DNA from: Flavobacteriales bacterium
GTDB lineage: Bacteria > Bacteroidota > Bacteroidia > Flavobacteriales > UBA1820
DNA: 54,944 nt
Reading direction: 5' to 3'
Assembly (NCBI GenBank): GCA_017620815.1
Contig: JAGAUI010000028.1
Location: 1-54,944 of the forward strand
Position 1 is the stretch's first letter; each line of letters begins with the position of its first letter. The position numbers and the translations under genes are program-made. Of the stretch, positions 6,455-46,946 are shown in pieces. Under the pieces are notes generated by a model that searched no databases, had not been told where the DNA came from, and worked only from the letters and a program-made list of their open reading frames with translations.

Positions 6455-6459
6455 TTAAG

Positions 6460-6972
6460 ATGATAGAATTAAAAGCCATTCACGTAGTATTTGCCGTTTT
6501 GGCACTCATCATAGTGGTGTTTTCCATCATGACGGTTACTACACGCCGCATATTGCGTGCAGCTACTTACCTGCTGTTTGTACTCTTTGCGGTGGCAGCA
6601 CTATTCTTCCAGTTGGATTACCAATTCCTAGGAGCAGTGCAGCTTACCATATATGCGGGAGGTATCATAGTCCTTTATGTGTTCTCCATACTGCTTACTC
6701 ACGGTGTGGGTGATAAACAGGACCTTCCCGAAAAGAAAAAAGTTATTCCTGCTCTTGTGGCATCACTAGGTGGTCTAGCACTAGCAGGATATATGTTGTA
6801 CCAAGAGACGTTCCCTGCTGTCCCTTATGACGCTACCGACCCAGATATGAAAGTGGTAGGTGCTGCTCTTATGGGACTAGGCGAGGGCGGATACATTTTC
6901 CCATTTGAGGTGATAAGCGTATTCCTTTTGGCGTGTATTATAGGTGGAATATTAATAGCTAGAAAACGATAA
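6460..6972 (+). CDS. nuoJ: NADH-quinone oxidoreductase subunit J
   Basis: A 170-residue membrane subunit with five predicted helices. The segment 'GAVQLTIYAGGIIVLYVFSI' matches the conserved helix 3 of the family, whose local distortion is tied to coupling in complex I. It lies 5 bases after nuoI and 4 bases before nuoK, so translation is probably coupled. Confidence 0.92.
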   Translation: MIELKAIHVVFAVLALIIVVFSIMTVTTRRILRAATYLLFVLFAVAALFFQLDYQFLGAVQLTIYAGGIIVLYVFSILLTHGVGDKQDLPEKKKVIPALVASLGGLALAGYMLYQETFPAVPYDATDPDMKVVGAALMGLGEGGYIFPFEVISVFLLACIIGGILIARKR

Positions 6973-6976
6973 GAAT

Positions 6977-7288
6977 ATGGATATACCAATGCAATGCTAT
7001 CTGCTGGTAGCAGCCGTGATGTTCTTCTGTGGAATATACGGTTTCATCACCCGCCACAACGTGCTGGCTATGCTTATATCGCTGGAGCTTATCCTCAATG
7101 CGGTAAACATAAACTTTGTGGTATTTAACCGTTTCCTTTATCCCGAAGCCTTGGAAGGGTATTTCTTTACTCTCTTCTCTATAGGTGTAGCGGCTGGTGA
7201 GACGGCTGTGGCGATAGCCATCATCATAAATATATACCGCAATATCAAAAACATCAAGGTAGAAAACCTTGACAATATGAAGTTCTAA
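6977..7288 (+). CDS. nuoK: NADH-quinone oxidoreductase subunit K
   Basis: A 103-residue subunit of three helices, related to MrpC antiporter subunits. The conserved acidic helix residues are seen in 'LAMLISLELILNAVNINFV' (Glu) and 'AAGETAVAIAIIINIYRN' (Glu), which lie on the proton path of the membrane arm. Length is normal for the family. Confidence 0.94.
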   Translation: MDIPMQCYLLVAAVMFFCGIYGFITRHNVLAMLISLELILNAVNINFVVFNRFLYPEALEGYFFTLFSIGVAAGETAVAIAIIINIYRNIKNIKVENLDNMKF

Positions 7289-7312
7289 ATCCGCTATCAA
7301 ATAACGTAAAAA

Positions 7313-9226: not shown

Positions 9227-9257
9227 TTAATTAAGAAATAGATAAAATACATAGATT

Positions 9258-10751: not shown

Positions 10752-10776
10752 GATAATTATTATACATACATAGACG

Positions 10777-12201
10777 ATGGATTTCAATAGCATACTTACA
10801 CTTCTAAGACCAGAACTATCGCTACTGGCGATAATAATTATCCTGCTTATATATGACCTATTTGCAGGCAATACTGCCAAAAAATACTTCCAACCCCTAG
10901 CATGGGTGCTTCTAGCTGCCCATACAGTGTGGAGTTTCTGCCTTACTCCAGAAGGCACTCTATTTGGTGGAATGTTTGCAACTACACAAGCAGCCTCTCT
11001 GGTTAAGGCCATACTTTCATTGGCAACACTTATAGTATTCCTCCAAGCAGGTGGAGCTCTTGCAAAAGCCGAATCTTCATTTAAGACAGGCGAGTTCTAT
11101 GTGCTTACTCTTTCTACACTATTTGGTATGAATATCATGATATCTTCTGGACATTTCTTGATGTTCTACCTAGGACTAGAAACAGCTTCTATACCACTTG
11201 CATGTCTAGTGGCATTTGATAAATATAAACAGAACAGTGCCGAAGCCGCTGCCAAATATATCCTTAACGCAGCCCTTTCTTCTGGTATCCTAGTATATGG
11301 TCTTTCATTTATCTATGGTACTTGCGGTACACTCTATTTTGCAAATGTGCCTTCACTGCTAGATATGACAGTGCTTCAGGTGGCAGGTATAGTGATGTTC
11401 CTAGCAGGTATGGGATTCAAGATTTCTCTTGTACCTTTCCATATGTGGACTCCAGACGTGTACCAAGGTGCACCTACTTCGGTTACTGCATATCTTTCTG
11501 TAGTGTCAAAAGGAGCAGCAGCGTTTGCTCTTATGACAGTACTGTTTAAGGTATTTGCTCCTATGGCTGCTGTATGGCAAGACCTACTATATGGTATCAT
11601 TATAGTTACTATCACACTAGCCAACCTATTTGCTATACGTCAGAAGGATATCAAGCGTTTCTTTGCTTATTCTTCTATCTCACAGGCTGGTTATGTGGTA
11701 CTAGGTATCATGGCAGGTACAGCCGAAGGTATGACAGCTATGATATACTACATACTAGTGTACATACTTTCAAACCTTGCAGCATTTGGTGTTATCTCAA
11801 CAGTTGAAAACCACACAGGACGTGTAAACATAGACCAGTACAATGGCCTTTACTCTACCAACCCTCGTATGGCATTTGTGATGATGCTTGCCCTATTCTC
11901 ATTGGGTGGTATTCCTCCATTTGCAGGTTTCTTCAGCAAATTCTTCATCTTTACATCGGCTGCTGCTTCTGGATATTATGTGTTGGTATTCATAGCATTG
12001 GTAAATACTATCATCTCACTTTACTACTATCTGCTAGTGGTAAAAGCTATGTTTATCAACAAGACAGATGCTCCTGCTCCACACTTCCGCAGCGAAAAAG
12101 CTCTAGTATTCTCACTGGCTATATGTGTAGCTGGTATAATATTTGCTGGTGTCGCTAGCTGCCTATATGGTGGAATAGGTCAGTTCACTTTCGGTATGTA
12201 A
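10777..12201 (+). CDS. nuoN: NADH-quinone oxidoreductase subunit N
   Basis: A 474-residue antiporter-like subunit that joins NuoM to NuoK. Motifs are 'FYLGLETASIPLACLVAFDK' (key Glu), 'GMGFKISLVPFHMWTPDVYQ' (key Lys) and 'IKRFFAYSSISQAGYVVLG'. It is the last gene of the operon, ending 16 bases before a strong terminator. No nuoE, nuoF or nuoG is present before or after. Confidence 0.94.
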   Translation: MDFNSILTLLRPELSLLAIIIILLIYDLFAGNTAKKYFQPLAWVLLAAHTVWSFCLTPEGTLFGGMFATTQAASLVKAILSLATLIVFLQAGGALAKAESSFKTGEFYVLTLSTLFGMNIMISSGHFLMFYLGLETASIPLACLVAFDKYKQNSAEAAAKYILNAALSSGILVYGLSFIYGTCGTLYFANVPSLLDMTVLQVAGIVMFLAGMGFKISLVPFHMWTPDVYQGAPTSVTAYLSVVSKGAAAFALMTVLFKVFAPMAAVWQDLLYGIIIVTITLANLFAIRQKDIKRFFAYSSISQAGYVVLGIMAGTAEGMTAMIYYILVYILSNLAAFGVISTVENHTGRVNIDQYNGLYSTNPRMAFVMMLALFSLGGIPPFAGFFSKFFIFTSAAASGYYVLVFIALVNTIISLYYYLLVVKAMFINKTDAPAPHFRSEKALVFSLAICVAGIIFAGVASCLYGGIGQFTFGM

Positions 12202-19794: not shown

Positions 19795-20661
19795 ATGAAG
19801 AGAGTATGGGTGTGTGGCTCTAAAGGGCAGTTGGGTCTATCGCTACAAGGCATAGTGGGGGGAAGTAAGCACAGATACTTCTTTACCGATGTAGAAGTAG
19901 ATATATGTTCCCGTGATAATGTAGAGGAGTATGTAAGACAAAACGAAATAGACGTTATTATAAATTGTGCGGCATATACTGCCGTAGATGCAGCCGAAAA
20001 AGATAAAGAGAAGGCGTATGCTGTAAATCATCTTGCGGTAGAAAATCTCTCTCTCGTTGCAGAAAAAAACGGAGTATTTCTCATACATATATCTACAGAC
20101 TATGTATTTGACGGGAGAGCTAGCAGACCATACATGGAAGATGATGCAGTGAATCCTATGAGTGTGTATGGAGATAGCAAATGGAAGGGAGAAAGAGCGA
20201 TAGAGGAGAGTGGCTGTAAGTATATCATACTGCGTACAGCTTGGTTGTATAGCCAGTATGGGAAAAACTTTGTCAAGACTATGATACGTCTTACAAGTGA
20301 AAAAGAGAGTATAAGTGTAGTTAATGACCAGAGAGGTTGCCCTACATATGCAGGAGATTTGGCTCGGGTGATATATGATGTGGTGGAAAGAGATGATTAT
20401 GAAAAAACCCAAGGTGTATATCACTATGTAGGAGGAGGCAGTTGTTCGTGGTGGGAATTGGCAAGGGAAGTGGCTCGTGTGGCAGGAAATGATAGATGTG
20501 AAATAAAACCTTGTACTACCAGCGAATACCCTACTGTAGCACATCGTCCAGCATATAGCGTTTTAGATGCTAGAAAGGTGCAGGAGACCTTTGGGATAGA
20601 GATACCACATTGGAAAGAGGCTCTGCGTAAGTGTATGGCCAATATAAAGAAAGGAGAATGA
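19795..20661 (+). CDS. rfbD: dTDP-4-dehydrorhamnose reductase
   Basis: A 288-residue short-chain dehydrogenase for the last step of dTDP-L-rhamnose synthesis. 'VWVCGSKGQLGLSL' is the NAD(P)-binding loop, 'NCAAYTAVDAAEKD' and 'ISTDYVFDG' are family signatures, and 'VYGDSKWKGE' holds the YxxxK pair. The frame is open from 19771 inside rfbC, but ATG 19795, 7 bases after the rfbC stop, places the Rossmann loop at the usual N-terminal position. Confidence 0.93.
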   Translation: MKRVWVCGSKGQLGLSLQGIVGGSKHRYFFTDVEVDICSRDNVEEYVRQNEIDVIINCAAYTAVDAAEKDKEKAYAVNHLAVENLSLVAEKNGVFLIHISTDYVFDGRASRPYMEDDAVNPMSVYGDSKWKGERAIEESGCKYIILRTAWLYSQYGKNFVKTMIRLTSEKESISVVNDQRGCPTYAGDLARVIYDVVERDDYEKTQGVYHYVGGGSCSWWELAREVARVAGNDRCEIKPCTTSEYPTVAHRPAYSVLDARKVQETFGIEIPHWKEALRKCMANIKKGE

Positions 20662-21716
20662 AAAGAAATATACTCATAACAGGAGGAGCGGGTTTTATAG
20701 GTAGCCATGTGGTGCGTCTGTTTGTAAACAAATATCCAGACTATTACATAGTATGTCTGGACAAATTGACCTATGCTGGGAATCTTGCCAATCTCAAAGA
20801 TGTAGAGTCTAGTAGTAATTATACGTTTGTAAGAGCAGACGTTGCTGACTATGCAGCGATAAAAAAAGTATTTGAGGAGTATGATATAAACGGAGTGATA
20901 CATCTGGCTGCCGAAAGTCATGTGGACCGCAGTATTACCGACCCATTTACCTTTGCTCGTACCAATGTAATGGGAACGCTTACTCTGCTGCAAGTAGCAC
21001 GAGAGTATTGGGCAGGAGACTGGGATGGTAAACGTTTTTATCACATCTCTACCGATGAGGTATATGGAGCATTGGGCGTGGGAGATGATTTGTTTACAGA
21101 GGAGACACGATATGACCCTCATAGCCCATATAGTGCATCAAAGGCATCGAGTGACCATTTTGTACGTGCATTTCATGATACATATGGAATGCCTACCCAT
21201 ATATCCAACTGCTCCAACAACTATGGGCCATATCAGTTCCCAGAAAAACTCATACCGCTGTGCATAAATAATATCAAGCTGGGGCGTGATATCCCAGTGT
21301 ATGGCAAGGGCGAAAATGTGAGAGATTGGTTATATGTGGAGGACCATGCTAAGGCAATAGATGAGATATTTCACCGTGGGAAAGACGGGGAGACTTATAA
21401 CATAGGTGGTAATAACGAATGGCGAAACATAGATGTCGTTAAACTTATAATAGAAACAGTAGATAGACTCTTGGGTAATCCTGTGGAGCATTCGCTGGGA
21501 CTTATAACCTATGTCACAGACCGTGCTGGGCATGACTTACGTTATGCCATAGACTCTTCAAAACTCCAAAGAGAGTTGGGTTGGAAACCTTCGTTGGATT
21601 TTGAGGAAGGTATAGAAAAGACTGTGAGTTGGTATCTGGAAAATGAAGATTGGGTAGAAGGTGTTACCAGTGGGCAGTATGAGTCGTATTATGAAACTAT
21701 GTATCAAAATAGATAG
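20658..21716 (+). CDS. rfbB: dTDP-glucose 4,6-dehydratase
   Basis: A 352-residue extended SDR enzyme for the second step of dTDP-L-rhamnose synthesis. 'NILITGGAGFIGSHVV' is the NAD loop, 'HLAAESHVDRSI' and 'HISTDEVYG' are conserved (Asp-Glu catalytic pair), and 'SPYSASKASSDHFV' has the Tyr and Lys. ATG 20658 overlaps the rfbD stop as ATGA and gives the standard length; an earlier in-frame ATG at 20631 is unlikely. The gene order rfbA-C-D-B is complete here. Confidence 0.95.
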   Translation: MKRNILITGGAGFIGSHVVRLFVNKYPDYYIVCLDKLTYAGNLANLKDVESSSNYTFVRADVADYAAIKKVFEEYDINGVIHLAAESHVDRSITDPFTFARTNVMGTLTLLQVAREYWAGDWDGKRFYHISTDEVYGALGVGDDLFTEETRYDPHSPYSASKASSDHFVRAFHDTYGMPTHISNCSNNYGPYQFPEKLIPLCINNIKLGRDIPVYGKGENVRDWLYVEDHAKAIDEIFHRGKDGETYNIGGNNEWRNIDVVKLIIETVDRLLGNPVEHSLGLITYVTDRAGHDLRYAIDSSKLQRELGWKPSLDFEEGIEKTVSWYLENEDWVEGVTSGQYESYYETMYQNR

Positions 21717-30736: not shown

Positions 30737-31347
30737 TTGAATTGGTTTAATATTAAAAAAATAATAAAAGAAATTAATGATTTTAAAATTTGTGTAATCG
30801 GACTAGGTTACGTAGGCCTGCCACTAGCACGCCTGTTCTCTACAAAATATGATACTGTAGGGTTTGACATGAATCAATCACGTGTGGATGCTTTAAATGC
30901 AGGGCACGACGCTACGATGGAAGTGAGTGACGTTCTTCTTCAAGATGCAATTAAAAACCACGGATTCAAATGTAGTACAAGGTTGGATGATATCCGTGAT
31001 TGTAATATATATATTGTGGCTGTTCCTACACCTGTAGATGAAAATAATCGTCCAGATTTAAAACCTCTATGGGGGCAAGCGAAACTGTAGGGAAAGTTAT
31101 TTCCAAAGGTGATATAGTGGTTTATGAGTCTACAGTATATCCAGGAGTGACAGAAGAAAAATGTCTACCTGTAGTAGAAAGAGTATCTGGATTAAAGTTT
31201 AATGTAGATTTCTATGCCGGATATTCTCCAGAACGTATCAATCCTGGAGATAAAGAGAATACAGTGGAAAAGATAAAAAAAGTTACATCTGGTTCTACCC
31301 CCGAAATCGCAGACATAGTAGATAATCTGTATAAAGAAATTATACTT
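30737..31347 (+). pseudogene. Frameshifted, truncated TviB-like sugar dehydrogenase
   Basis: The first part, from a TTG at 30737, reads as the NAD domain of a TviB/VipA-type UDP-sugar dehydrogenase ('ICVIGLGYVGLPLARLFSTK', 'IYIVAVPTPVDENNRPDLKP'), then leaves frame at a run of five G (31071-31075). The match resumes in another frame ('ASETVGKVISKGDIVVYEST', 'YAGYSPERINPGDKENTVEK'). A run of six G would restore the frame. The match stops at about residue 210 of a normal 430 or so, exactly where the next gene begins, so the catalytic-Cys half is absent. The gene cannot be active even if the frame is corrected. Confidence 0.85.
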
Positions 31348-32334
31348 ATGAATATATATATCACGTTAGATTACGAACTTTTTTTGGGCCCAAAGACAGG
31401 ATCTGTTGATAAATGTTTAATAGAACCAACATATAATCTATGTAAGGTTGTAAGTAAACACGGGTCAAAGATGGTGTTTTTTATAGATGTATTGTATCTT
31501 ATCAAACTAAGAGAATATTCATCAGATGATATTAGATTACGAGAAGATTATAATAAAATAATAAAACAGCTAAAGTTTTTGAATAATGAAGGTCACGATC
31601 TTCAATTACATATTCATCCTCAATGGAATTATTCTACTTACGATAAATTCAAAAGAGAATGGAAGTTAGATTTTATTCATTATAGTGTGTCAGATTGTCC
31701 ATTTGATGATGTGAAAAAAATGTTTGTAGAAGGGTGTAATTTTATTTATGATATAATAGGTAAATATCCTACAGTGTATAGAGCGGGAGGATATAGTTTT
31801 ATGAATGAAAGTAATTTTGTAGACTTTCTTGTATCTATAGGGATAACTAATGATTCATCAGTGTTAATGCGTGAAAAATCATGTACTAAGTTTCAGAAAT
31901 ATGATTACTCTAGTATTAAAGATTTTTCAGCATATAAATTCAGTAATGATATTACAAAACCTGTTCAGAGTGGGTGTATGACAGAGTATCCTATAACAAC
32001 TATAAACATGATACATGTTGTGCGTTCAATAGTTAATAGATTTATAAAGCATAAATATGGCAATCGAGTACTAAAAAAAGGTGATGGATATGGAGTTGGA
32101 TATCTAAATCGTAATAAGTCCAATGTGTCTTTATTTAAAAAAATAAATCAAAGAGCATCTATAGATTTAACGAATGGTTTTTGGCTTAATTATATTTATA
32201 ATAAAATAAAAAAAAGAGGAGATTTGATGCTCATAATAGGGCATCCTAAAAATTTTACTGATTATTCTTTTATTGCATTAGGAAAATTTCTTGATACCAT
32301 TAGTAAAGATGATAAAATAAAAACATTTAAATAA
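31348..32334 (+). CDS. NodB-like polysaccharide deacetylase, paralog A
   Basis: A 328-residue protein that starts at ATG 31348, fused in frame behind the dehydrogenase remnant. 'MNIYITLDYELFLGPKTGS' resembles the first motif of NodB-type deacetylases with one Asp, 'NEGHDLQLHIHPQW' supplies a His cluster for metal binding, and 'VYRAGGYSF' is the third motif. It is a paralog of the gene at 36842 (20 of the first 27 residues identical). The family acts on carbohydrate N-acetyl groups; some distant members have other roles. No signal peptide, so it acts in the cytoplasm, perhaps on lipid-linked sugars. The start is chosen by comparison with the paralog. Confidence 0.72.
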   Translation: MNIYITLDYELFLGPKTGSVDKCLIEPTYNLCKVVSKHGSKMVFFIDVLYLIKLREYSSDDIRLREDYNKIIKQLKFLNNEGHDLQLHIHPQWNYSTYDKFKREWKLDFIHYSVSDCPFDDVKKMFVEGCNFIYDIIGKYPTVYRAGGYSFMNESNFVDFLVSIGITNDSSVLMREKSCTKFQKYDYSSIKDFSAYKFSNDITKPVQSGCMTEYPITTINMIHVVRSIVNRFIKHKYGNRVLKKGDGYGVGYLNRNKSNVSLFKKINQRASIDLTNGFWLNYIYNKIKKRGDLMLIIGHPKNFTDYSFIALGKFLDTISKDDKIKTFK

Positions 32335-33434: not shown

Positions 33435-33453
33435 ATAATAAATATGCTATTTG

Positions 33454-35283
33454 ATGTTAAAGAAATTAAAACACTATACACTTTGGGAGATTCTCAGGCA
33501 GATACCCTATAAGATAGGATATCGCCTTGCGTTAAGAAAGGAAAAATCTCGGGTGACAAATATGGATTGGGAGGAGGTTTTTCCATTTAAAACATTAAAT
33601 TTTGAGGATTTTTCAGAGTTTTATAGACGGTGTAATGATGATAAGGATGAAGTTATTGCTGTCGCTCAAAATATATTGAATGGAGAGATAGAGATTTTCC
33701 ATAAGAAATATTATTTTGATCATAAGAATGATTGGTTATTAGACCCAGTCTCTCGTAACGAATGGGATAGAAATATATTCTTTGTTTCGGCTCCTAATAA
33801 TCAAGCGGGGTGTAAAGATGTAAAATATGTATTGGAAGTAAACAAGATGAATCATCTTGTCAATGTAGCTCAAGCATTTTATGTTACAGGAGAGAAAAAA
33901 TATGTTGATTACATAGAAGAGTCTATAATTGCATGGAAGGAGATAGTAAAGCCCGGAAGGAGTATAGCTAGTAGGATTATAATGGATTTAGGTTTTAGAG
34001 TTATAAACCTATTTTATATAATACTGCTATGTTCTCCCAAAAGCGAAGATTTTAATAAAAAAGTATTACCCCATATATTAGGTATAATATCAGAACATGT
34101 AAGAAGGATAGAGAAATTTTCATCACCTCGTTGGTTCAAGTCTGGTAATGGAGTGAATCATAATACAGGAGAGATGATTGGTCTGATAATAGGGCAAAAG
34201 ATATTGGAATCATATGGAATTAAATCTTATACCAAAAGTTATCCTTCAGAATATCGTTATCTAATAGAAGTTTTGGATAGGACTATTGCTCCAAGTGGGG
34301 CATATCTAGAACAGTCTGCAAATTATGCAAGGGTAGTTTCAGAATTTCTAGTATGTTTTGATATGTTTATGGGTGTCTTTGGGCATCCTACTTGTGCAAA
34401 AAGATATTTGGAGGGGAATTATACATCGAGATTACTCACGTTCCTATATGATTTGAATTATAATAATTTTTTACCCAATTATGGAGATAATGATGATGCA
34501 CGAGTGTTGATACCATTTTGTAAAAAAAACAATGAAGTAGAATATGTGCTAGAAGGAGTAAATCCCCCATCAAAATATCGTTCATATATAGATGGCAGCC
34601 AATGGATATGGCATTCATATGATAGTAATGATGTATTCATTACCACTAGGGTGGGAAGGTTTACGTATCTGCGTGAAGGAGCTGCGGTACATGCACACAA
34701 TGATATTTTGGCAGTATGTGTAGGCATAAAAGGTTATCCTCTATTTGTGGATAAAGGATGCCGATATTATAATTCTGGACTAGATATAATGAGAGAGGAT
34801 CGCAGTGTGGAGAGTCACAATACGGTTTCGTTTAAGGGAGTGGAGATGAATCATACGTATAGTTCAATATATTATGATTACCCGAAATCAAGATGTTATA
34901 ATGAGGGTTCAAATGATGGGACTATTTTTAAGGGTGTAGTGGAGTACTATGGTCGTCAACATATAAGAGAAATAAACTATGCAGAAGGTACACTTTTAAT
35001 TGTGGACAATATAAAATCACTGAATGCAGATAAAGTAAGTATACGTTATATGTTGCATCATGATGTGAATCCACAAGTGATAAATGATAATACTGTAGAT
35101 TTATATGTGGGTAGCCAATATAAGATTGCAACAATAACCTTTGATGGAGTGCAAGATGTTAAAATAGTACCGACTACCTATTCTACGTCATATTCGGTGG
35201 AAATCCCTACAAAAAGTATTGTAGCATCTATTAATGAGACTAGAACAACGACAAAAATATTTCTATATGATAAGAAAAATTAG
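33454..35283 (+). CDS. Heparinase II/III-like polysaccharide protein
   Basis: A 609-residue protein of the heparinase II/III family: an alpha/alpha barrel (about 60-360; 'FKSGNGVNHNTGEMIGLIIG', with Asn and His in the region of the lyase active site) and a C-terminal beta-sandwich (about 380-609; 'TYLREGAAVHAHNDILAV' with a His, then 'GYPLFVDKGCRYY'). The first 30 residues are basic and amphipathic with no signal peptide. Lyases of this family cleave uronic acid-containing chains, which fits the ManNAcA made here; many capsule-locus members have no shown activity. TTG 33451 is directly before ATG 33454, which I use as the start. Confidence 0.82.
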   Translation: MLKKLKHYTLWEILRQIPYKIGYRLALRKEKSRVTNMDWEEVFPFKTLNFEDFSEFYRRCNDDKDEVIAVAQNILNGEIEIFHKKYYFDHKNDWLLDPVSRNEWDRNIFFVSAPNNQAGCKDVKYVLEVNKMNHLVNVAQAFYVTGEKKYVDYIEESIIAWKEIVKPGRSIASRIIMDLGFRVINLFYIILLCSPKSEDFNKKVLPHILGIISEHVRRIEKFSSPRWFKSGNGVNHNTGEMIGLIIGQKILESYGIKSYTKSYPSEYRYLIEVLDRTIAPSGAYLEQSANYARVVSEFLVCFDMFMGVFGHPTCAKRYLEGNYTSRLLTFLYDLNYNNFLPNYGDNDDARVLIPFCKKNNEVEYVLEGVNPPSKYRSYIDGSQWIWHSYDSNDVFITTRVGRFTYLREGAAVHAHNDILAVCVGIKGYPLFVDKGCRYYNSGLDIMREDRSVESHNTVSFKGVEMNHTYSSIYYDYPKSRCYNEGSNDGTIFKGVVEYYGRQHIREINYAEGTLLIVDNIKSLNADKVSIRYMLHHDVNPQVINDNTVDLYVGSQYKIATITFDGVQDVKIVPTTYSTSYSVEIPTKSIVASINETRTTTKIFLYDKKN

Positions 35284-35698
35284 ACATTATTGTTGGAGAT
35301 TAAAAATTAATACAAGGTACCTAATATATACTCGTATATTTAAGATGGATATTCATCCATCAGCAAGGATAAGTTCAGATGCAAGATTAGATGCTACTTA
35401 TCCAAAAGGTATTCACATAGGTGAGGAGAGCTATATAGCTGGTGGAGTTATTGTGTTTAGTCATGATTATTGTCGTGGACTTCATTGTGATACATACATA
35501 GGAAAGAGATGTTTCATAGGAGCCAATGCTATTATAATGTGTGGTGTGAAAATAGGAGATGAGGTGGTAGTAGGTAGTGGATCGGTTGTGACAAAAGACG
35601 TACCAAGCAATTGTATTGTAGCTGGTAACCCTGCCAAAATCATCAAAGAAGGAATAAAGACCAAGAAATTTGGTCAAATAGAGACAAATAATAAATAA
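35267..35698 (+). CDS. Left-handed beta-helix acetyltransferase
   Basis: A 143-residue hexapeptide-repeat acyltransferase of the WbbJ/maltose acetyltransferase type. The repeats run from 'IHPSARISSDARLD' to 'VGSGSVVTKDVPSNCIVAGN', with the active-site His in 'VIVFSHDYC' and the closing 'GNPAKIIKEG'. It probably O- or N-acetylates a sugar of the repeat unit. ATG 35267 overlaps the preceding gene by 17 bases; ATG 35345 would give a shorter protein without the basic N-terminal helix. Confidence 0.85.
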   Translation: MIRKIRHYCWRLKINTRYLIYTRIFKMDIHPSARISSDARLDATYPKGIHIGEESYIAGGVIVFSHDYCRGLHCDTYIGKRCFIGANAIIMCGVKIGDEVVVGSGSVVTKDVPSNCIVAGNPAKIIKEGIKTKKFGQIETNNK

Positions 35699-36841: not shown

Positions 36842-37834
36842 ATGAATATCATATTGACGTTGGACTATGAACTATTTTTAGGAAAAAATACGGGTAGTAT
36901 AGATAATTGTTTAATACGTCCATTAGATGCTTATATAGAAAGTATAGAAAAATATGGAGCAAAATTTACCATATTTGTAGATGCCACATACTTATATAGA
37001 TTGAAAGACTATTCTACAAAATATGAGAAAGCGGCGGAAGATTATAAAAAAATTTCTACTCATATAAAGAATCTACAACAGAGAGGTCACGAGATACAAT
37101 TACATATCCATCCCCATTGGTTTTACTCTGATTACAATGGACAAGAATGGAATATGGATCAAACGCATTACAAATTGTGCGATTTGCCCTTGGAAGAAGC
37201 AGAAAAAATTTTCTCGTCGTCAAAGGCTTTATTAGATAGCATAATAGGAAGTGCTACTACTGCATTTCGTGCAGGAGGTTTTTCTACTCAACCCACAGAA
37301 ATACTGAAGCAGTTATTTGAACAAAATGAGATAAAAGCAGATACATCTGTGTGTCCTGGGAATATTTATGATTCTCCACAACAGAAATATGATTATCTGA
37401 GAGTGCCAGTTGTTGATAAATATATGTTTTCTAATGATATATGTCTTGAAGATCCTCAGGGTAAATATATTGAAATACCTATCACGACATATAAAATATC
37501 TCCGCTGTTTTATTGGAAACTGGCATGTAATAGGCTCCTTAAATTAAATAGACATCGTATATGGGGAGATGGAGAGGCTGTAGTTACTACAGCAGAAAGT
37601 ATAAAGGTCCGCCTTACAAGATATACCCAAGCAATGGCATGTATAGATGGGTATAAGATAAGTTATCTAAAAGATATATATAAATTCCAAAAAAAGAGAA
37701 ATCGGGAAATATTATGTGTCTTGGGGCACCCTAAACTGGCTACTAATTATTCGGTAATTAAGTTGGAAGAATTTTGTAAATATGCCACTTCCGATGGAGC
37801 TAAATTTTTAACTATATCTCAATGTTATGAATAA
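36842..37834 (+). CDS. NodB-like polysaccharide deacetylase, paralog B
   Basis: A 330-residue cytoplasmic protein and the second copy of the gene at 31348. It keeps 'MNIILTLDYELFLGKNTGS', 'QRGHEIQLHIHPHWFYSDYN' and 'TAFRAGGFSTQ', and 'CVLGHPKLATNYSVIKLEEF' near the end parallels 'LIIGHPKNFTDYSFIALGKF' of paralog A. The GHP-K motif in both suggests an extra conserved function. It overlaps the following AAC(3)-like gene by eight bases, so the two may act on the same sugar: deacetylation, then re-acylation. Confidence 0.73.
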   Translation: MNIILTLDYELFLGKNTGSIDNCLIRPLDAYIESIEKYGAKFTIFVDATYLYRLKDYSTKYEKAAEDYKKISTHIKNLQQRGHEIQLHIHPHWFYSDYNGQEWNMDQTHYKLCDLPLEEAEKIFSSSKALLDSIIGSATTAFRAGGFSTQPTEILKQLFEQNEIKADTSVCPGNIYDSPQQKYDYLRVPVVDKYMFSNDICLEDPQGKYIEIPITTYKISPLFYWKLACNRLLKLNRHRIWGDGEAVVTTAESIKVRLTRYTQAMACIDGYKISYLKDIYKFQKKRNREILCVLGHPKLATNYSVIKLEEFCKYATSDGAKFLTISQCYE

Positions 37835-38786
37835 AAATCTGAAGATTGCCATTAGCTTTATTTTATATTATAGTCCTTCTTTTGTCAAAGAAAAAATCAA
37901 AGCCATAAAAGATAAGAAAGAATTGGAGGAGGGAATGGCTCGGGCTAAAAGAACAAAAGTATCAAAAGAGGAATTACTTGTAATAATAGACAATTTAGAT
38001 TTGGATACGGACATTATGCTACATACATCTATAATGAATGTAGGTAAAGTCACAGGAGGAGCTAAATTTATAGCTAATACTATAAAAGAACGAGTGGTAG
38101 ACATGGGTAATCATACATTATTGGTCTCAGCATTGCCATATCGTGGGGGATTTAAGGATTATTTAGAAAAAGATCCAGTATTTGATGTCAGAACTGCACC
38201 TATTGCTATGGGAGAAGTTAATAGTCGCATATCTACTTTCCCAGGTGCATATCGTAGTATCCATCCTACGCATTCTGTCGTTGCGATAGGCCCTCGATCC
38301 AAGGAATATATAGATGAACATTTCTTAGATGATACACCATTTGGGAAACATAGTCCCTATTATAAATTGTTGAAAAATAAAGCTAAAATTTTGCTCTTTG
38401 GAGCAACATTGAACAATCTAACTTATGTTCATGCCGTAGAGGATATGGTGGGAAGCATTTATATGCATAGATATTATTGTAAAAAAGATTATGAAGTAGA
38501 TTGTATCGATGCTAATGGTAAAATTATCAACGTAAAAACAAAATGTCATCATCCTTTGAAATGTATAGGTAGAGATGTGAGCGTTTTATATGACGATATG
38601 ATAAAGGAAGAAGTTATGAAAGTTTTCCCTTTTGGCGAAGCACAAGTGATGCAGATAGATGTATATAAATTTACAAAATTCTATCTCAACTATTTGAAGG
38701 GAGGACGTTCTATTTACGGTAAATTTACGGTTACGCAAGATATAAATAACCGAATAAATGAGTTGTTAGAAAGTATCAATCAGTAG
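37827..38786 (+). CDS. AAC(3)-family acyltransferase
   Basis: A 319-residue member of the aminoglycoside N3-acetyltransferase fold. 'DTDIMLHTSIMNVGKVTGGA' near residue 60 and 'YRSIHPTHSVVAIGPRSKEY' around residue 150 are the family's CoA and active-site motifs, and 'ILLFGATLNNLTYVHAVEDM' follows. In polysaccharide loci such proteins acylate amino sugars rather than antibiotics. The placement directly after a deacetylase-like gene supports N-acylation of a free sugar amine. There is no reason to read it as a resistance gene. Confidence 0.78.
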   Translation: MNKNLKIAISFILYYSPSFVKEKIKAIKDKKELEEGMARAKRTKVSKEELLVIIDNLDLDTDIMLHTSIMNVGKVTGGAKFIANTIKERVVDMGNHTLLVSALPYRGGFKDYLEKDPVFDVRTAPIAMGEVNSRISTFPGAYRSIHPTHSVVAIGPRSKEYIDEHFLDDTPFGKHSPYYKLLKNKAKILLFGATLNNLTYVHAVEDMVGSIYMHRYYCKKDYEVDCIDANGKIINVKTKCHHPLKCIGRDVSVLYDDMIKEEVMKVFPFGEAQVMQIDVYKFTKFYLNYLKGGRSIYGKFTVTQDINNRINELLESINQ

Positions 38787-38976: not shown

Positions 38977-39684
38977 ATGAAGGTAGAAAAAGTTACAATT
39001 AACGGAGTAAATATATTCCCATTTGCATCGGAAGACCAGGTCATTGAATATGTAGATAAACACAAAGGAATTCTTGTGGCACTCAATGCTGGGAAAATAG
39101 GAAGATCATCTGATGTGATGCGAAAGATGATAAATGAAAATATAGGCTATGCAGATGGTATGGCAGCAGTGATGGCTCTAAAGAAAAAAGGAGCTAAGAA
39201 TGTTGTAAGAATACCAGGGTGTGAATTGTGGCTAAAAATCATTGAAAAGAAGTATAGGGATAGTACATTTTATCTAGTGGGAGGCAGTAATGCTGTGATA
39301 GAAGAAACTATATCTCGACTTAAAAATGATTATAAGGGAATCAATATAGTGGGATATAGAGAAGGTTTTATCAAGTCTGATGGAGAACGAGAAACACTGA
39401 TAAATGATGTAGTAGAAAAGAAACCAGATGTGGTTTTTGTAGCTATGGGTACCCCTAAACAAGAATTGTTGATGAAAGAAATGTCTAACAGACATTCTGC
39501 TATATATCAAGGATTGGGAGGGAGTTTTGACGTTTATACGGGAAGGGTAGAGAGAGCTCCATTATGGTTGAGAAAGTTAAACCTAGAAGGGCCTCATAGA
39601 GTATTCAAAGACCCTAAAAAAATTAAACGATTTGTGTTGGATTTAGCTGTAATAATTAAGATCAAATTAGGAATTATAAAATAA
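38977..39684 (+). CDS. WecG/TagA/CpsF family glycosyltransferase
   Basis: A 235-residue GT26 enzyme. 'ILVALNAGKIGRSSDVMRKM' and 'IGYADGMAAVMALKKKG' form the active-site region (Asp), then 'DVVFVAMGTPKQELLM' and 'YQGLGGSFDVYTGRVERAP'. WecG transfers ManNAcA and TagA transfers ManNAc to lipid-linked GlcNAc. As the locus makes UDP-ManNAcA (wecB, wecC) and starts with a WecA-like enzyme, this is probably the ManNAcA transferase for the second sugar. Confidence 0.87.
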   Translation: MKVEKVTINGVNIFPFASEDQVIEYVDKHKGILVALNAGKIGRSSDVMRKMINENIGYADGMAAVMALKKKGAKNVVRIPGCELWLKIIEKKYRDSTFYLVGGSNAVIEETISRLKNDYKGINIVGYREGFIKSDGERETLINDVVEKKPDVVFVAMGTPKQELLMKEMSNRHSAIYQGLGGSFDVYTGRVERAPLWLRKLNLEGPHRVFKDPKKIKRFVLDLAVIIKIKLGIIK

Positions 39685-39713: not shown

Positions 39714-39944
39714 ATGGACACACAAGAATTTATCAAGAATTTTGCCAATCAATTTGAAGACACAGACGCTAGTGAAATAACAATGGAAACTTCGTTTAGA
39801 GATTTGGACGAATGGGATTCACTGGTTGCATTGGCTATCCTCAATATGATAGCAAAGAAATATGGCGTAAAGCTAACATTTGATGATATGAGGCAGACAA
39901 ATACAGTTCAAGAGTTGTTTAACGTTGTAGAATCAAAAAAATAA
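39714..39944 (+). CDS. Dedicated acyl carrier protein
   Basis: A 76-residue ACP. 'DEWDSLVALAILNMIAKKYG' contains Ser36, the expected phosphopantetheine attachment site, in a DSL motif. It differs from housekeeping AcpP (no 'GADSLD' motif), as in specialised ACPs. Its stop overlaps the start of the ketoreductase gene (TAATG), and a ketoacyl synthase follows, so the three should work as one acyl-making unit. Confidence 0.88.
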   Translation: MDTQEFIKNFANQFEDTDASEITMETSFRDLDEWDSLVALAILNMIAKKYGVKLTFDDMRQTNTVQELFNVVESKK

Positions 39945-40693
39945 TGGAAGTAAATCCATTTTCATTATCAGGAAAGACAATCTTGGTAACAGGAGCGTCT
40001 TCTGGTATAGGTAGAGCTATAGCGGTGGCTTGTGCCAATATGGGAGCTAAACTCATAATTACAGCTAGAAATAAAGAGCGTCTAGAAGAGACAATATCTC
40101 TTATGTCTGGCGAGGGGCACCGCTATATCTCGGCCGATCTTACTAAGGTAGATGATATATACTCATTGGTTACAGAATTGCCAAAATTGGATGGAGTTGT
40201 TAGTAATGCCGGAGTAGTAAAGAGTATAGTTGCTTTGTTTAGTGATTATAGTGAAACGCAAGAAATATTCAATACTAATGTTTTCTCTCATATCAATCTT
40301 ATACAGCAATTATTAGAAAACAAAAGACTCAATAAAGAAGCCTCAATAGTATTTACATCATCTATCTCTGGTGTGTATTGTGGTCTTTTAGGGGGTTCTT
40401 TGTATGGTGCTACTAAATCGGCTATAAATGGTTATGTAAGGGCTCTGGCATTGGAGTTGGCTCCGAGAAAAATAAGAGTCAATACTATCAATCCAGGAAT
40501 GATAGAAACAGATCTTGTTGCTTCGACATCTATAACAAAAGAAGAATTGGAAGAAGATAAAAAGAAGTATCCAATGAAAAGATACGGTCGCCCTGATGAA
40601 GTAGCCAATAGTGTAGTTTATCTTTTGTCAGATGTTACAAAATGGATGACAGGAACCAGTCTCCTATTAGATGGAGGTTATTCAGTACAATAA
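39944..40693 (+). CDS. FabG-like short-chain reductase
   Basis: A 249-residue classical SDR. The cofactor loop 'TGASSGIG' is at residues 16-23, the 'NAG' motif at 88-90, and the catalytic Ser140, Tyr154 and Lys158 lie in 'SSISGVYCGLLGGSLYGATK'. It ends with 'MTGTSLLLDGGYSVQ', as 3-oxoacyl-ACP reductases do. Lying between an ACP and a KAS III, it most likely reduces a 3-oxoacyl-ACP to the 3-hydroxy form. A sugar dehydrogenase role is less likely but not excluded. Confidence 0.85.
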   Translation: MEVNPFSLSGKTILVTGASSGIGRAIAVACANMGAKLIITARNKERLEETISLMSGEGHRYISADLTKVDDIYSLVTELPKLDGVVSNAGVVKSIVALFSDYSETQEIFNTNVFSHINLIQQLLENKRLNKEASIVFTSSISGVYCGLLGGSLYGATKSAINGYVRALALELAPRKIRVNTINPGMIETDLVASTSITKEELEEDKKKYPMKRYGRPDEVANSVVYLLSDVTKWMTGTSLLLDGGYSVQ

Positions 40694-40708
40694 AAAATAA
40701 ATTAAATT

Positions 40709-41707
40709 ATGAAGGCATATATAAAGGCGTTATCATATTATCTGCCAGAGCAGATACTTACCAACGAAGAACTGGTAAAAGAATTTCCAGAATGGAGTGT
40801 TGAAAAAATTGCAGGCAAGATAGGTGTAACACAGCGTCATATAGCAGCTCCAGACGAAACCGCAGGAGACATGGCGGTAAAGGCGGCTAATAAGATGATA
40901 GAGGAATATGGTATAGACAGAACAGAGATAGATTTTATAGTTCTATGTACTCAGAGTCCAGATTATTTTCTTCCAAGTACAGCCTGTGTCATTCAACATG
41001 CGTTGAATATCCCTACTACATGTGGGGCATTTGACATAAATCTAGGTTGTTCTGGGTATGAATATGGTCTTGCAATAGCAAAAGGATTTGTAGTATCTGG
41101 AATTGCAAAGAACGTTCTTTTACTCACAGCAGAGACATATACCAAGCATCTCCATCCCAAAGACAAGGGAAACAGGACAATATTTGGAGATGCGGCAACA
41201 GCTACATTGGTGTCCGATAATGGCTTTGCAGAGATAGGAGAATTGTCTTTGGGTACAGACGGCTCTGGAGCAGACCATCTTATCCATAAAAGCGGTGCAT
41301 TCAGACAGTATTCGCCTATGAATGATTTGACATTTGACGAAAATGACAATCCTCATTCTAGTGATTATCTGTATATGAATGGCAAGGCTATATTTGATTT
41401 TACATCAGAAGCAGTACCAGTGATGGTAGATGATACATTGTCAAAAAATAATTTGACATTGGACGATGTTGACTTGGTCGTATTTCACCAAGCAAATAAA
41501 TATATGATAAATTATTTGCGAAAGCTATTGGATATAGATAAAGAAAAGTTCTATATATTTTTGGAAAATGTAGGTAATACAGTATCATCTACTATCCCTA
41601 TCGCATTGTGTGAAGCAAAAAAAGAAGGTCGTCTGTGTGGAAAAGTTTTGGTGGCAGGATTTGGTGTAGGTCTTTCATATGGTGCAACAATTCTGTATTG
41701 TGAGTAA
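40709..41707 (+). CDS. 3-oxoacyl-ACP synthase III-like enzyme
   Basis: A 332-residue thiolase-fold enzyme of the KAS III (FabH-like) group. The triad is visible: Cys114 in 'DINLGCSGYEYGL', His260 in 'VVFHQANKYMINYL' and Asn290 in 'ENVGNTVSSTIPIAL'. FabH condenses an acyl-CoA primer with malonyl-ACP. Here it would make a short 3-oxoacyl chain on the neighbouring ACP. The presence of this gene in a polysaccharide locus points to a non-standard acyl group on a sugar. Confidence 0.88.
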   Translation: MKAYIKALSYYLPEQILTNEELVKEFPEWSVEKIAGKIGVTQRHIAAPDETAGDMAVKAANKMIEEYGIDRTEIDFIVLCTQSPDYFLPSTACVIQHALNIPTTCGAFDINLGCSGYEYGLAIAKGFVVSGIAKNVLLLTAETYTKHLHPKDKGNRTIFGDAATATLVSDNGFAEIGELSLGTDGSGADHLIHKSGAFRQYSPMNDLTFDENDNPHSSDYLYMNGKAIFDFTSEAVPVMVDDTLSKNNLTLDDVDLVVFHQANKYMINYLRKLLDIDKEKFYIFLENVGNTVSSTIPIALCEAKKEGRLCGKVLVAGFGVGLSYGATILYCE

Positions 41708-41754
41708 ATAATAGAATATAGTCTTCTATAAAATAAGATGAGGGTAAAATATAT

Positions 41755-42714
41755 ATGGCAACATTTATAGTAAAAAAAACAACAGAATTATCTATTGATG
41801 AAAAGAAACAGATAATAAATTTGTTTAACATTGTATTTGATAAAAATAGGAGTGTTGAAGAATTTGACAATCAATATCTGAATAATCCAATGGGATATTC
41901 ATATCATTCTATGATGATTGTAGATGATATTATTGTGGGACATAATTCGGGAGTACCATGTTATTATTATGTCAATGGAAAGAAGGTGGTATTTGCTTGC
42001 AATATTGATACTATGATACATCCTAATCATAGGGGGATTGAAAATTATTATGATTTGATGAGTGCTACATATGTAGAATATAAAAATGATAGAGTAGATG
42101 TAGTATATGGATTCCCTAATGATAATGCATTCCCGCTACTTACAAAGTTGAAGTTTATGAAAAATGTAGGCAGAATGTATACATATTGCCTGCCATATAG
42201 GATAGGAGGTTATAAAAAATCGTTGAAATATCTCAATTGGCTGTCTCGTCTATTCTGTGTGATGTGTGTCAATGTGAGTATGATTTTTGCGTCAAAAAAA
42301 CAGACTTCTTTTAAGATAGAGAAGGATACTGATACGTACAATAAGAGTCGTTACCAAAGAATGGATGGAGAATATTCTAGAGTGGTGTGTAAAGGCGTAG
42401 AGTTTGTATATAAGATAATGAATCATGAAGGTGTAAGAACTGCATTTATTATAGATGTTATGGGTAAATCTTCATATAATTTTTGTACAGCGGTAAAATA
42501 TATACTTAAAAATGAGAGTGCCAATTTTGATATGATTATTTATCCTGGGATTTTACCATTCTCGATAACAGGAATGATAAGAATACCAAGAAAATATGAA
42601 CCTAAGCGTTTTAATTTCACGTGTAAGAGAATGTCTTCAGATAAGGAGTTAGATAAATATATTTACTCTATTGATAATTGGGATATAAATCTATCTAATT
42701 ATGATTTAATATAA
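41755..42714 (+). CDS. GNAT-family acyltransferase
   Basis: A 319-residue protein with a GNAT-like N-terminal half: 'VGHNSGVPCYYYVNGKKVVF' and 'CNIDTMIHPNHRGIENYYDL' resemble the central strands and the CoA-binding loop, and 'VDVVYGFPNDNAFPLLTKLK' the following helix. The longer C-terminal half resembles the second domain seen in larger GNAT (Eis/FemAB-like) proteins. The gene follows the KAS III gene and its stop overlaps the next start (TAATG). It is a candidate for moving the acyl chain from ACP to an amino sugar. Confidence 0.68.
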   Translation: MATFIVKKTTELSIDEKKQIINLFNIVFDKNRSVEEFDNQYLNNPMGYSYHSMMIVDDIIVGHNSGVPCYYYVNGKKVVFACNIDTMIHPNHRGIENYYDLMSATYVEYKNDRVDVVYGFPNDNAFPLLTKLKFMKNVGRMYTYCLPYRIGGYKKSLKYLNWLSRLFCVMCVNVSMIFASKKQTSFKIEKDTDTYNKSRYQRMDGEYSRVVCKGVEFVYKIMNHEGVRTAFIIDVMGKSSYNFCTAVKYILKNESANFDMIIYPGILPFSITGMIRIPRKYEPKRFNFTCKRMSSDKELDKYIYSIDNWDINLSNYDLI

Positions 42715-43562
42715 TGAATGTATTGACATTTGACGTAGAGGAATGGTTCCATCTACTAGATTTTGATTCTACCCGCGGTGAGGAATCTTGGGAGGGGTAT
42801 GAGGTTCGTATCCATCAAAATATGGATAGAATATTCCGCCTTTTGGAAGAAACAGATAGCAATGCTACGTTTTTTGTTATAGGATGGATAGCAAAAAAAT
42901 ATCCCGAGGTAGTACGTCGTATAGCTGAAAAATATGAAGTAGCCAGCCATACTATGACTCATCAGCTGGTGTGGCAACAGACACTGGAAGAATTCAGACA
43001 AGATGTAGATAGCTCTATTAAACTTCTGCAAGATATAACGGGTAAACCTGTGAAATATTTCCGTGCGCCAGGTTTCTCAATAAGACAGAGTGAGGCTTGG
43101 GCGTTTAATATATTGGCAGATTTAGGAATAGAGATAGATTGTTCTGTGTTCCCTGCTACACACGCACACGGGGGGATGTCTTCATATCCTACACATATGC
43201 CTAGTATAATAGAGCACGATGGTGTAAGGATAAAAGAAATGCCTATTACTACCAAAAAGATTATGGGTAAACCTGTGATATTCTCGGGAGGAGGATATTT
43301 TAGACTATTTCCATATAGTATGATAAAGAAATGGACAAAAGAAAAAAGTGATTTTTGTCTATCATATATACATCCTCGTGATTTGGACGGCGGGCAGCCT
43401 GTATTGGAAGGGTTGCCATTATCAAGAAGATTTAAGTCCTATGTAGGAGTAAAGGGTGCCGAAGAAAAGTTACGTAAGTATTTGACGGACTTTTCTTTTG
43501 TAGATATAGCAGAAGCAGATAAACATATTGATTGGCATAAAGCACAGATAGTTAAATTATAA
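42714..43562 (+). CDS. XrtA-associated-type polysaccharide deacetylase
   Basis: A 282-residue NodB-domain protein of the DUF3473 group. 'LTFDVEEWFHLLDFD' is motif 1 with the metal Asp, 'YEVASHTMTHQLVWQQT' is motif 2 with two His, and 'YFRAPGFSIRQSEAWAF' is motif 3. The C-terminal 'SYIHPRDLDGGQPVLEG' and 'SRRFKSYVGV' define the subgroup found in exopolysaccharide loci. No signal peptide. It is clearly different from the paralogs at 31348 and 36842, so it should have a separate substrate. Confidence 0.87.
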   Translation: MNVLTFDVEEWFHLLDFDSTRGEESWEGYEVRIHQNMDRIFRLLEETDSNATFFVIGWIAKKYPEVVRRIAEKYEVASHTMTHQLVWQQTLEEFRQDVDSSIKLLQDITGKPVKYFRAPGFSIRQSEAWAFNILADLGIEIDCSVFPATHAHGGMSSYPTHMPSIIEHDGVRIKEMPITTKKIMGKPVIFSGGGYFRLFPYSMIKKWTKEKSDFCLSYIHPRDLDGGQPVLEGLPLSRRFKSYVGVKGAEEKLRKYLTDFSFVDIAEADKHIDWHKAQIVKL

Positions 43563-44510: not shown

Positions 44511-46946
44511 ATGTCAGATCAAAATATACAGCAGAATAACGTATCACAAGAAGAAAGCGAATATACGTTCAGGGACTTATATGATCAGGTGAGAGCCCAT
44601 TGGGTATGGTTCTTGATTTCTATTATAGCGTGTATATCGATAGCCGTTTTATATCTTAAAACCACACATAGTGAGTACTCTCGTACAGCTACGGTACTTA
44701 TAAAAGACGAGAAGAAAGGTGGTGCAGGAGTAACAGAATCGGCACTATTTTCTGAATTGGGTATTATGGGAGGTGTGAGTACGGTAGATAATGAGATGAT
44801 AGTATTCCAATCCACCAAACTGATGGAGGACGTAGTTCGTCGTTTGGGACTTAATGTGGTGTATGTAAAACCAGCGTTGTTCAAGAGTGAAGATTTGTAT
44901 GGACACAGTCCTGTCGTGGTAAAATTCCTAGACAATGATGATACAGAACCTATCCAACTAGTAATCACGCCTCGTGATGATAAAAAGTTCTCCATACATT
45001 CGTTTGTGATAGATGAGGAAAAGTATTCATATAAACGTGAGGCAGGATATGGTGATACCCTTTCTACTCCTGCTGGTAGATTGGTGGTAGAAAAGACTCT
45101 GTATCTGGATGAGGAAACATATGGTGATGATATAGAGATAAGTCATCTGCCGATGAAAAAAGTGGTTACTATGTATAGAAAGGTTGTAAGCGTTACACTT
45201 TCTAGTAAGACAGCTAGTGCTCTTACACTATCTATGATAGATATAGTTCCACGTCGAGCCGAAGACGTTATAAATACCCTTATAGAGGTGTATAACGAAG
45301 ACGCCATAGAGGACAAAAACCAAGTGGCAGAAAGCACCAAAAACTTTATAGATGAACGTCTGTCTATAATAGGTAGAGACCTTGAAGATGTAGATGCCCG
45401 TATAGAGCAATATAAACGTTCCAATGAGATAGCCGACATCACGTCTGAAATGACGGTTACTCTTCAAGCAGAAAGTGAGTATAAGAGACAGTCTTTAAGT
45501 GTAGAAAATGAGATACGCATAGCCGAATTTATACGCGAGTATCTCACATCTCCTTCCAAGGCAGATGACCTTATACCAGTAAATACAGGAATACAGGACG
45601 AGGGTATCAATACTATGATTACCCAGTACAATACCAAAAAGATAGAACGCGACCGTTTGCTAGCTAACTCTGGCGCCAAAAACCCACTTGTACAAGACAA
45701 GAATACCGAACTTTTGGCACTTAAAAAGTCTATCATTTCCTCTATTGATAACTTGCTTACATCGTTACATATCCAGCAGAAAGGTCTTAAAGCACAAGAC
45801 GAAAAAACCAAACGTCGTATAGCTACCGTACCTTCACAGGAAAAAGAGGTGATGACTATCTCTCGTGACCAGAAGATTAAAGAGGAACTATATCTTTATT
45901 TGCTCAATAAACGCGAGGAGAATGCTATGACACTTGCCATAGCCGAAGACAGAGCCCGTATCATAGATGCAGCACATGGTAGTGATATCCCTGTTGCTCC
46001 TAGAAAAATGATGGTTCTTCTAGTGGCATTGGTTATAGGATGTGCTATTCCTATAGTTTGGTTGTATTTGAGGGATATACTTGATACTACGGTGCGTGGA
46101 CGCAAGGATGTTGATGATGTTCTTACAGCTCCATTCATAGGTGAGGTGCCAGAACGCGACCGCGATGATAATCCCGGTGAAGAGGTATTGGTACGAGAGG
46201 GCAAACGCGATGGTCTTTCAGAGGCATTCCGTATCATCCGTACCAATATGGACTTCCTTGCCGTGAAGGGTAAACCTATAAAAGTGGTTACATTTACATC
46301 TTATGCACCGGGTAGTGGTAAGACATTCGTTTCGTCAAACTTTGCTATGGTACATGCCTTGGCAGGTAAGAAGGTGGCACTTTTGGATATGGACTTGCGT
46401 AAACGTACTCTATCCAAACGCCTTAAGAAAGCTGCTCATCCGGGTATCACTACTTACCTTTCGGGTAAGATAGACAATGTAGATGATATGATAGTACCAC
46501 AAGTATATCATGAGAATCTGGATTTAGTGTGTGCAGGGCCTATGCCTCCAAACCCTGCCGAACTTCTACTTTCAGACCGTCTGGATACTATGATGGAAGA
46601 ATTGAAAAAGAAATATGACTATATAGTGATAGACGGTGTGCCAAACACTATGGTTGCCGATGCTAGTATCATAGACCGAGTAACAGATGTTACACTATTT
46701 ATAGTACGTGTAGGTAAAATGGACCGCCGTGTACTTCCAGTGGTGGAAAGAATGTACAAGACAGGAGCCCTTACCAATATTTGTATCCTTCTTAACGGTG
46801 TACGCTCTACTCATGGAAGCTATGGATACGGCTATGGTTATGGTTATGGATATGGCTATGGATACGGCTATGGCTATGGCAATGAAAAAGATGCCAAAAA
46901 TCGCCGCAAATTTGCACTTTTAGAAAGATTGAAAAACAAAAAATAG
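44511..46946 (+). CDS. wzc: Wzc-like tyrosine autokinase and chain-length regulator
   Basis: An 811-residue BY-kinase. Two membrane helices (about 31-50 and 503-523) flank a long periplasmic Wzz domain with coiled-coil stretches. The cytoplasmic kinase has the Walker A loop 'YAPGSGKTFVSSNFA' near residue 600, Walker A' 'VALLDMDLRKRTLSKRL' and Walker B 'YDYIVIDGVP'. The tail has ten alternating Tyr-Gly pairs at 771-790, followed by a basic end. Wzc-type kinases phosphorylate such tail tyrosines on each other, and cycling of phosphorylation is needed for polymer export. The phosphatase gene follows after 6 bases. Confidence 0.93.
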   Translation: MSDQNIQQNNVSQEESEYTFRDLYDQVRAHWVWFLISIIACISIAVLYLKTTHSEYSRTATVLIKDEKKGGAGVTESALFSELGIMGGVSTVDNEMIVFQSTKLMEDVVRRLGLNVVYVKPALFKSEDLYGHSPVVVKFLDNDDTEPIQLVITPRDDKKFSIHSFVIDEEKYSYKREAGYGDTLSTPAGRLVVEKTLYLDEETYGDDIEISHLPMKKVVTMYRKVVSVTLSSKTASALTLSMIDIVPRRAEDVINTLIEVYNEDAIEDKNQVAESTKNFIDERLSIIGRDLEDVDARIEQYKRSNEIADITSEMTVTLQAESEYKRQSLSVENEIRIAEFIREYLTSPSKADDLIPVNTGIQDEGINTMITQYNTKKIERDRLLANSGAKNPLVQDKNTELLALKKSIISSIDNLLTSLHIQQKGLKAQDEKTKRRIATVPSQEKEVMTISRDQKIKEELYLYLLNKREENAMTLAIAEDRARIIDAAHGSDIPVAPRKMMVLLVALVIGCAIPIVWLYLRDILDTTVRGRKDVDDVLTAPFIGEVPERDRDDNPGEEVLVREGKRDGLSEAFRIIRTNMDFLAVKGKPIKVVTFTSYAPGSGKTFVSSNFAMVHALAGKKVALLDMDLRKRTLSKRLKKAAHPGITTYLSGKIDNVDDMIVPQVYHENLDLVCAGPMPPNPAELLLSDRLDTMMEELKKKYDYIVIDGVPNTMVADASIIDRVTDVTLFIVRVGKMDRRVLPVVERMYKTGALTNICILLNGVRSTHGSYGYGYGYGYGYGYGYGYGYGNEKDAKNRRKFALLERLKNKK
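46821..46880 (+). repeat. Ten tandem TAY-GGN hexamers in wzc
   Basis: Sixty bases of a six-base repeat (TAT or TAC plus GGN) that encode (Tyr-Gly)10. The hexamers vary in third position, so they are not a pure repeat, but slippage could still change the count without loss of frame. Confidence 0.9.

Follow-up and report, generated by a model that had tools for sequence, protein, structure and literature searches.

The polysaccharide locus considered here, from a Flavobacteriales bacterium, carries among its sugar genes a run of genes for building a short acyl chain, and it raises the question of what this chain is for and where an amine to receive it would come from. An answer can be sought in the genes on either side of the run, within the window (the whole 54,944-nucleotide stretch of DNA that was analysed). 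On balance, the evidence somewhat favours a gene set that, in this gut-type bacterium, exchanges the N-acetyl group of a sugar for a short hydroxyacyl group on a surface polysaccharide.

The acyl-building module and its locus

Four open reading frames, for an acyl carrier protein (ACP), a ketoreductase (KR), a ketoacyl synthase (KAS) III and a GNAT protein, follow one another in the same direction on the + strand between positions 39714 and 42714, with successive gaps of -1, 15 and 47 bases (Table 1). The positions of these genes and their Pfam domains agree with an earlier, sequence-only reading of this DNA, which ended the run at the GNAT; the run in fact continues, as the gene for the deacetylase PDA2 overlaps that of the GNAT by one base. 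The catalytic residues given in that reading for the ACP, KR (Ser140/Tyr154/Lys158) and KAS III (Cys114/His260/Asn290) were exact and are all intact, and they are conserved amongst relatives, including the ACP serine (72/72 aligned sequences), the KAS triad (81/81), and the KR Tyr and Lys (63/63) and Ser (62/63). KAS III would join a short acyl-CoA (in the simplest case, acetyl-CoA) to the malonyl group that the dedicated ACP carries; reduction by the KR would then yield a 3-hydroxyacyl-ACP. Since the module has a single KAS and lacks genes for a dehydratase and an enoyl reductase, the simplest product would stop at 3-hydroxybutyryl-ACP, and the module probably makes such a short 3-hydroxyacyl-ACP.

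Table 1. Module genes and neighbouring genes with a role in the argument, by position in the window.
Feature	Position	Strand	Basis
PDA1, carbohydrate-esterase-4-fold deacetylase-like protein	36842-37834	+	Fold model; Pfam Polysacc_deac_1 3e-4, below cut-off
AACX, AAC(3)-type (Antibiotic_NAT) candidate N-acyltransferase	37827-38786	+	Pfam PF02522 2.3e-36
WecG/TagA/CpsF glycosyltransferase, ManNAcA/ManNAc transferase type	38977-39684	+	PF03808 4.2e-44; TIGR00696 over cut-off
Dedicated acyl carrier protein	39714-39944	+	Pfam PP-binding 3.9e-8; Ser36 (DSL)
FabG-like 3-oxoacyl-ACP reductase (KR, SDR)	39944-40693	+	Pfam adh_short_C2 2.8e-52
KAS III, polysaccharide clade	40709-41707	+	Pfam ACP_syn_III_C 4.6e-25; tree
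GNATw, tandem-GNAT N-acyltransferase	41755-42714	+	Pfam Acetyltransf_9 1.5e-6; fold model
PDA2, polysaccharide deacetylase with DUF3473, XrtA-system type	42714-43562	+	Pfam; TIGR03006 2.6e-76

The surrounding locus holds rmlABCD-type genes, Wzx, Wzy, several glycosyltransferases, WecG, Wza and Wzc, together with a WecA/MraY-type transferase at 16688; locus genes that were not profile-scanned were assigned by reading their sequence. WecB and WecC both scored over their NCBIfam cut-offs, and FnlA and a WbjC-type reductase are best matches that fall under theirs. As read from these genes, the locus fits rhamnose, ManNAcA, and a sugar of the L-FucNAc/L-PneNAc type. The earlier assignment of L-FucNAc itself is doubtful: besides the FnlA- and WbjC-type enzymes, the locus has only one WecB-type 2-epimerase, so that the sugar may instead be L-PneNAc, or the epimerase may serve the ManNAcA pathway as well. 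Other occupants of the locus include a protein with a Heparinase II/III C-terminal domain and no obvious signal peptide (33451-35283), lying within the biosynthesis genes, a Wzc-like tyrosine kinase ending in a long (GY)n tail (44511-46946), and, after the kinase, a PHP-type phosphatase (46953).

Separation from housekeeping fatty-acid synthesis

A phylogeny of the KAS III against FabH, as proposed in the sequence-only reading, placed the polysaccharide KAS III (51 sampled entries) in a single clade (support 100/99) apart from 15 housekeeping FabH, and the window protein scored 260.8 bits against TIGR00747, under the cut-off of 292.1. Elsewhere, the genome encodes a second, housekeeping ACP (contig C25), the window ACP being the weaker of the two, a housekeeping FabG that scores over its cut-off (C14), and one further KAS III (C12). 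With the lack of a dehydratase and enoyl reductase, these results bear out a dedicated short-chain module in a polysaccharide locus.

The earlier reading had taken fabH and fabG missing elsewhere in the genome as a sign that the module feeds housekeeping lipid synthesis, and this holds for one of the two genes: FabG is present, and no protein of the window's genome exceeds the TIGR00747 cut-off as a canonical FabH, the window KAS being the best match. Even so, it is very improbable that KAS III, KR and ACP serve membrane lipid synthesis in a genome without canonical FabH. Two genomes of the same genus (G001 and G002) also seem to be without canonical FabH, and they lack the window KAS, yet both keep the C12-type KAS III as their only strong match; because of this retention, fatty-acid synthesis is most likely initiated by the C12 type. 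KAS III of similar score is the best one in four other small genomes (G012, G014, G029 and G038), the polysaccharide KAS clade is sporadic, unlike a housekeeping gene (19 of 395 genomes drawn evenly from the phylum), and the genome has its separate ACP and FabG. A housekeeping fatty-acid role for the module was rejected on the KAS tree, the separate ACP and FabG, and the same-genus relatives. The C12 gene itself (19865-20926) encodes a divergent 365-aa KAS III beside a TetR-like gene, and apart from the window KAS the genome has no further strong KAS III; proteins of similar score are the sole KAS III in 600-kb genomes of the order.

Deacetylase partners and a probable source of the amine

The sequence-only reading, in which an amino sugar could be acylated by the GNAT or by AACX, was incomplete: it missed both deacetylase partners and so gave no origin for the free amine. 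The AlphaFold model of PDA1 (pLDDT 82) matches solved CE4 deacetylases and ArnD (E 1e-8 to 6e-8), and PDA2 scored 256.3 bits against TIGR03006, just under the cut-off of 276.2 though this is nonetheless its nearest family, with DUF3473 over its Pfam cut-off. Invariant residues in the alignments are D8/E10/H88/H90/R143/D167/H296 for PDA1 and D7/E9/H79/H83/R117/D142/H220 for PDA2. With the catalytic Asp at residue 8 or 7, a signal peptide is not possible, and both proteins are thus probably cytoplasmic, the compartment where acyl-ACP for a linked acylation would be available. The gene for AACX overlaps that of PDA1 by 8 bases; its product belongs to the AAC(3) superfamily (125.9 bits to PF02522), and its score against the AAC_3 equivalog (87.5 bits, cut-off 270) suggests that it is not a resistance gene. 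A third deacetylase-like gene, 38% identical to PDA1, is found at 31348-32334. Directly before it is a nucleotide-sugar dehydrogenase remnant (30737-31348), with an N-terminal domain split across two frames and then cut off, that looks like a recombination scar.

Using a genome scan with the window KAS III, 80 loci were collected (KAS 59–79% identical), nearly all from the Bacteroidota with a few from the Spirochaetota; isolates carrying the cassette include Parabacteroides distasonis NM39_I3 and Chryseobacterium arachidis DSM 27619. In this neighbourhood search, which the sequence-only reading had also proposed, an ACP adjoins the homologous KAS III in 70 loci, a KR in 63, and the GNAT family of the window occurs in 9; the arrangement of the module is not due to chance, since ACP and KR recur as neighbours in independent loci. 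In all nine of these other loci the GNAT has a deacetylase partner, directly behind it in eight (hypergeometric p = 1.3e-5), although the loci were chosen by similarity to the window KAS and the co-occurrence with GNAT and PDA2 is therefore partly inherited; one locus has the order GNAT-ACP-KAS-deacetylase. The GNAT is probably the partner of PDA2. In unbiased samples it is rare (1 of 396 genomes of the order; in the phylum sample only remote matches of 33–48 bits, with no deacetylase match within their 3.3–3.7 kb loci), too rare for the pairing to be seen outside KAS-selected loci. A PDA1-AAC(3) pair lies beside ACP-KR-KAS in two further loci with no GNAT-PDA2 within 5.5 kb, and as the two pairs occur separately elsewhere, the window combines both.

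The same loci bear on a second source of amines. A deacetylase of CE4 or PIG-L type was present in 26 of the 80 loci, a DegT aminotransferase in 15, and both in none (Fisher p = 0.0017), an exclusion that persisted when the loci were thinned by KAS identity at 85% (p = 0.023) and 75% (p = 0.036) and was no longer significant at 70% (p = 0.14). In Flavobacterium psychrophilum, the genes wfpC-wfpG build the R-group of the O-polysaccharide with an ACP, a KR and KAS; the published account gives the product as 3,5-dihydroxyhexanoyl, the amine as coming from an aminotransferase, and the acyltransferase as PglD-like (PMC6519341). The window could likewise place its acyl group on an amino-nucleotide-sugar made by an aminotransferase, its deacetylases being unrelated and acting, for example, in partial de-N-acetylation of the polymer. 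That such a route is published, that 11 of the 15 DegT loci also carry an LbH acyltransferase, and that the genome has a DegT gene on C26 all speak for this; we nevertheless regard it as unlikely. Profile scans and sequence reading turned up no aminotransferase among the window genes that they covered, the LbH gene of the window (35234-35698) scored 61 bits against NeuD_NnaD, far below the cut-off of 160.8, and the GNAT is accompanied by a deacetylase in every locus where it was found. Fourteen of 20 relatives conserve the C26 gene, among them the same-genus G001-G003, which are without the window KAS and GNAT. The genome has one other clear DegT gene, on C1; neither looks tied to the module, that on C26 less firmly than that on C1. 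The C1 gene lies together with KdsB and an iron-dependent ADH (6208-11704), a cluster that we take to be probable 8-amino-Kdo (Kdo8N) genes, KdnA/KdnB-like.

The GNAT itself was modelled from ten homologues (pLDDT 90.9) as a tandem GNAT with a conserved WDxNLSNYD motif at its C-terminus. Its closest folds (Foldseek) are Eis, which N-acetylates aminoglycoside amines, and N-myristoyltransferase (NMT); no sequence relative was found in the PDB, and the Pfam scan returned Acetyltransf_9 only, with no match to NodA or to FemAB/Acetyltransf_6. Both Eis and NMT take acyl-CoA rather than acyl-ACP, which by analogy would count against an ACP donor. It would agree with a different role, in which the GNAT and AAC(3)-type enzymes only re-acetylate deacetylated sugars with acetyl-CoA and another transferase puts the 3-hydroxyacyl group on a hydroxyl. 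O-acylation of this kind is improbable for the window, to about the same degree as the aminotransferase route: MBOAT O-acyltransferases adjoin the same module in 10 of the 80 loci, but none was found among the window's locus genes, and taking off an acetyl group only to put one back would achieve nothing without some form of regulation. Five of the 80 loci have KAS and ACP with no ketoreductase nearby, next to MBOAT and DUF1574-like genes, and are probably an O-acylation variant.

For the exchange of acetyl for hydroxyacyl that we favour, we infer the chain length, the acceptor sugar, the use of acyl-ACP by the transferases and the order of the steps. A cytoplasmic CE4-type deacetylase (PDA2, or PDA1 in the second pair) would strip the acetyl group from a GlcNAc-, ManNAcA- or FucNAc-type residue of a lipid-linked repeat unit or precursor. 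Acyl transfer from the ACP onto the freed amine would then fall to the partner of each deacetylase, the tandem GNAT for PDA2 and AACX for PDA1, and the re-acylated unit would be flipped by Wzx, deacetylation thus preceding flipping. With two deacetylase/acyltransferase pairs and one acyl module, at least one pair may use acetyl-CoA.

Relation to known systems and implications

The likeness to F. psychrophilum drawn in the sequence-only reading is real and published as far as the acyl-making half is concerned (PMC6519341). Each has a dedicated ACP, KR and KAS amongst the polysaccharide genes of a member of the Bacteroidota, and the product, predicted in the case of the window, is a short hydroxylated acyl group destined for a sugar amine. 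The likeness ends there: the wfp module has two different KAS genes, an aminotransferase route and a PglD-like LbH acyltransferase, with no deacetylase in the accessible part of its description, whereas the window has one KAS (the other KAS III of the genome being at C12), two deacetylases, and GNAT and AAC(3)-type transferases. In seven of the 80 loci an additional, divergent KAS lies between ACP and KR (ACP-KAS2-KR-KAS), the order that two rounds of chain extension like those in F. psychrophilum would call for; one of these loci, L068, is from a Treponema bin, which suggests transfer between phyla.

Rhizobial Nod factors provide a parallel in logic. The reductase in the building of their acyl chain is NodG. 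NodB deacetylates and NodA then acylates with an ACP donor (PMC5080398), so that, as proposed for the window, cytoplasmic GlcNAc deacetylation is followed by N-acylation from ACP with a chain made by a dedicated KAS. The window differs in having KAS III instead of NodE, a short chain, a polysaccharide context, a GNAT unmatched by the NodA model, and a PDA2 that scores 55.4 bits against the NodB model TIGR04243 (cut-off 240). The Caulobacter holdfast likewise combines a deacetylase (HfsH) with a tandem GNAT (HfsK) on one polysaccharide, and acylation of the freed amines has been suggested (PMC5362036). The deacetylase is cytoplasmic there and probably also in the window; HfsK, however, is FemX-like and regulated by c-di-GMP, the window GNAT is nearer Eis and NMT by fold, and the acyl-making module of the window is absent from the description of the holdfast system (PMC5362036). 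As these tests of family membership fail, the window set may be said to work like the Nod and HfsH/HfsK systems rather than to belong to either. The product is likely of the same kind as in Acinetobacter K loci, where 3-hydroxybutanoyl amides are carried on amino sugars of the surface (qhbCB, psaGH and lgaHI); unlike the window, the gene modules listed for these sugars name no acyl-carrier module (PMC9676051).

The new part is the coupling of the acyl module to deacetylases and to GNAT/AAC(3) transferases, and no description of a deacetylase/GNAT/ACP polysaccharide system was found in the literature searched. A wider reading, held tentatively and at slightly less than even confidence, is that the Bacteroidota, with relatives in the Spirochaetota, independently evolved a Nod-factor-like system of deacetylation and reacylation, in which a portable ACP-KR-KAS III module is combined with one or another of several interchangeable deacetylase/acyltransferase sets (PDA2-GNAT or PDA1-AAC(3), with PIG-L and FemAB types as possible members in other loci), and the GNAT is a new family of ACP-dependent sugar N-acyltransferases. 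Such sets would serve to vary the sugar N-acyl groups on surface polysaccharides. If so, many Bacteroidota surface polysaccharides would bear short hydroxyacyl amides that arise through exchange of acetyl for acyl rather than during amino-sugar synthesis, these groups would be predictable from genomes, and a likely new acyltransferase family could be named. The window would also make it possible to test the idea, put forward for HfsH and HfsK, that re-acylation follows when a deacetylase frees an amine. Since R-group genes affect LPS antigenicity in F. psychrophilum, according to the published account (PMC6519341), a similar swap may set the antigenic type here.
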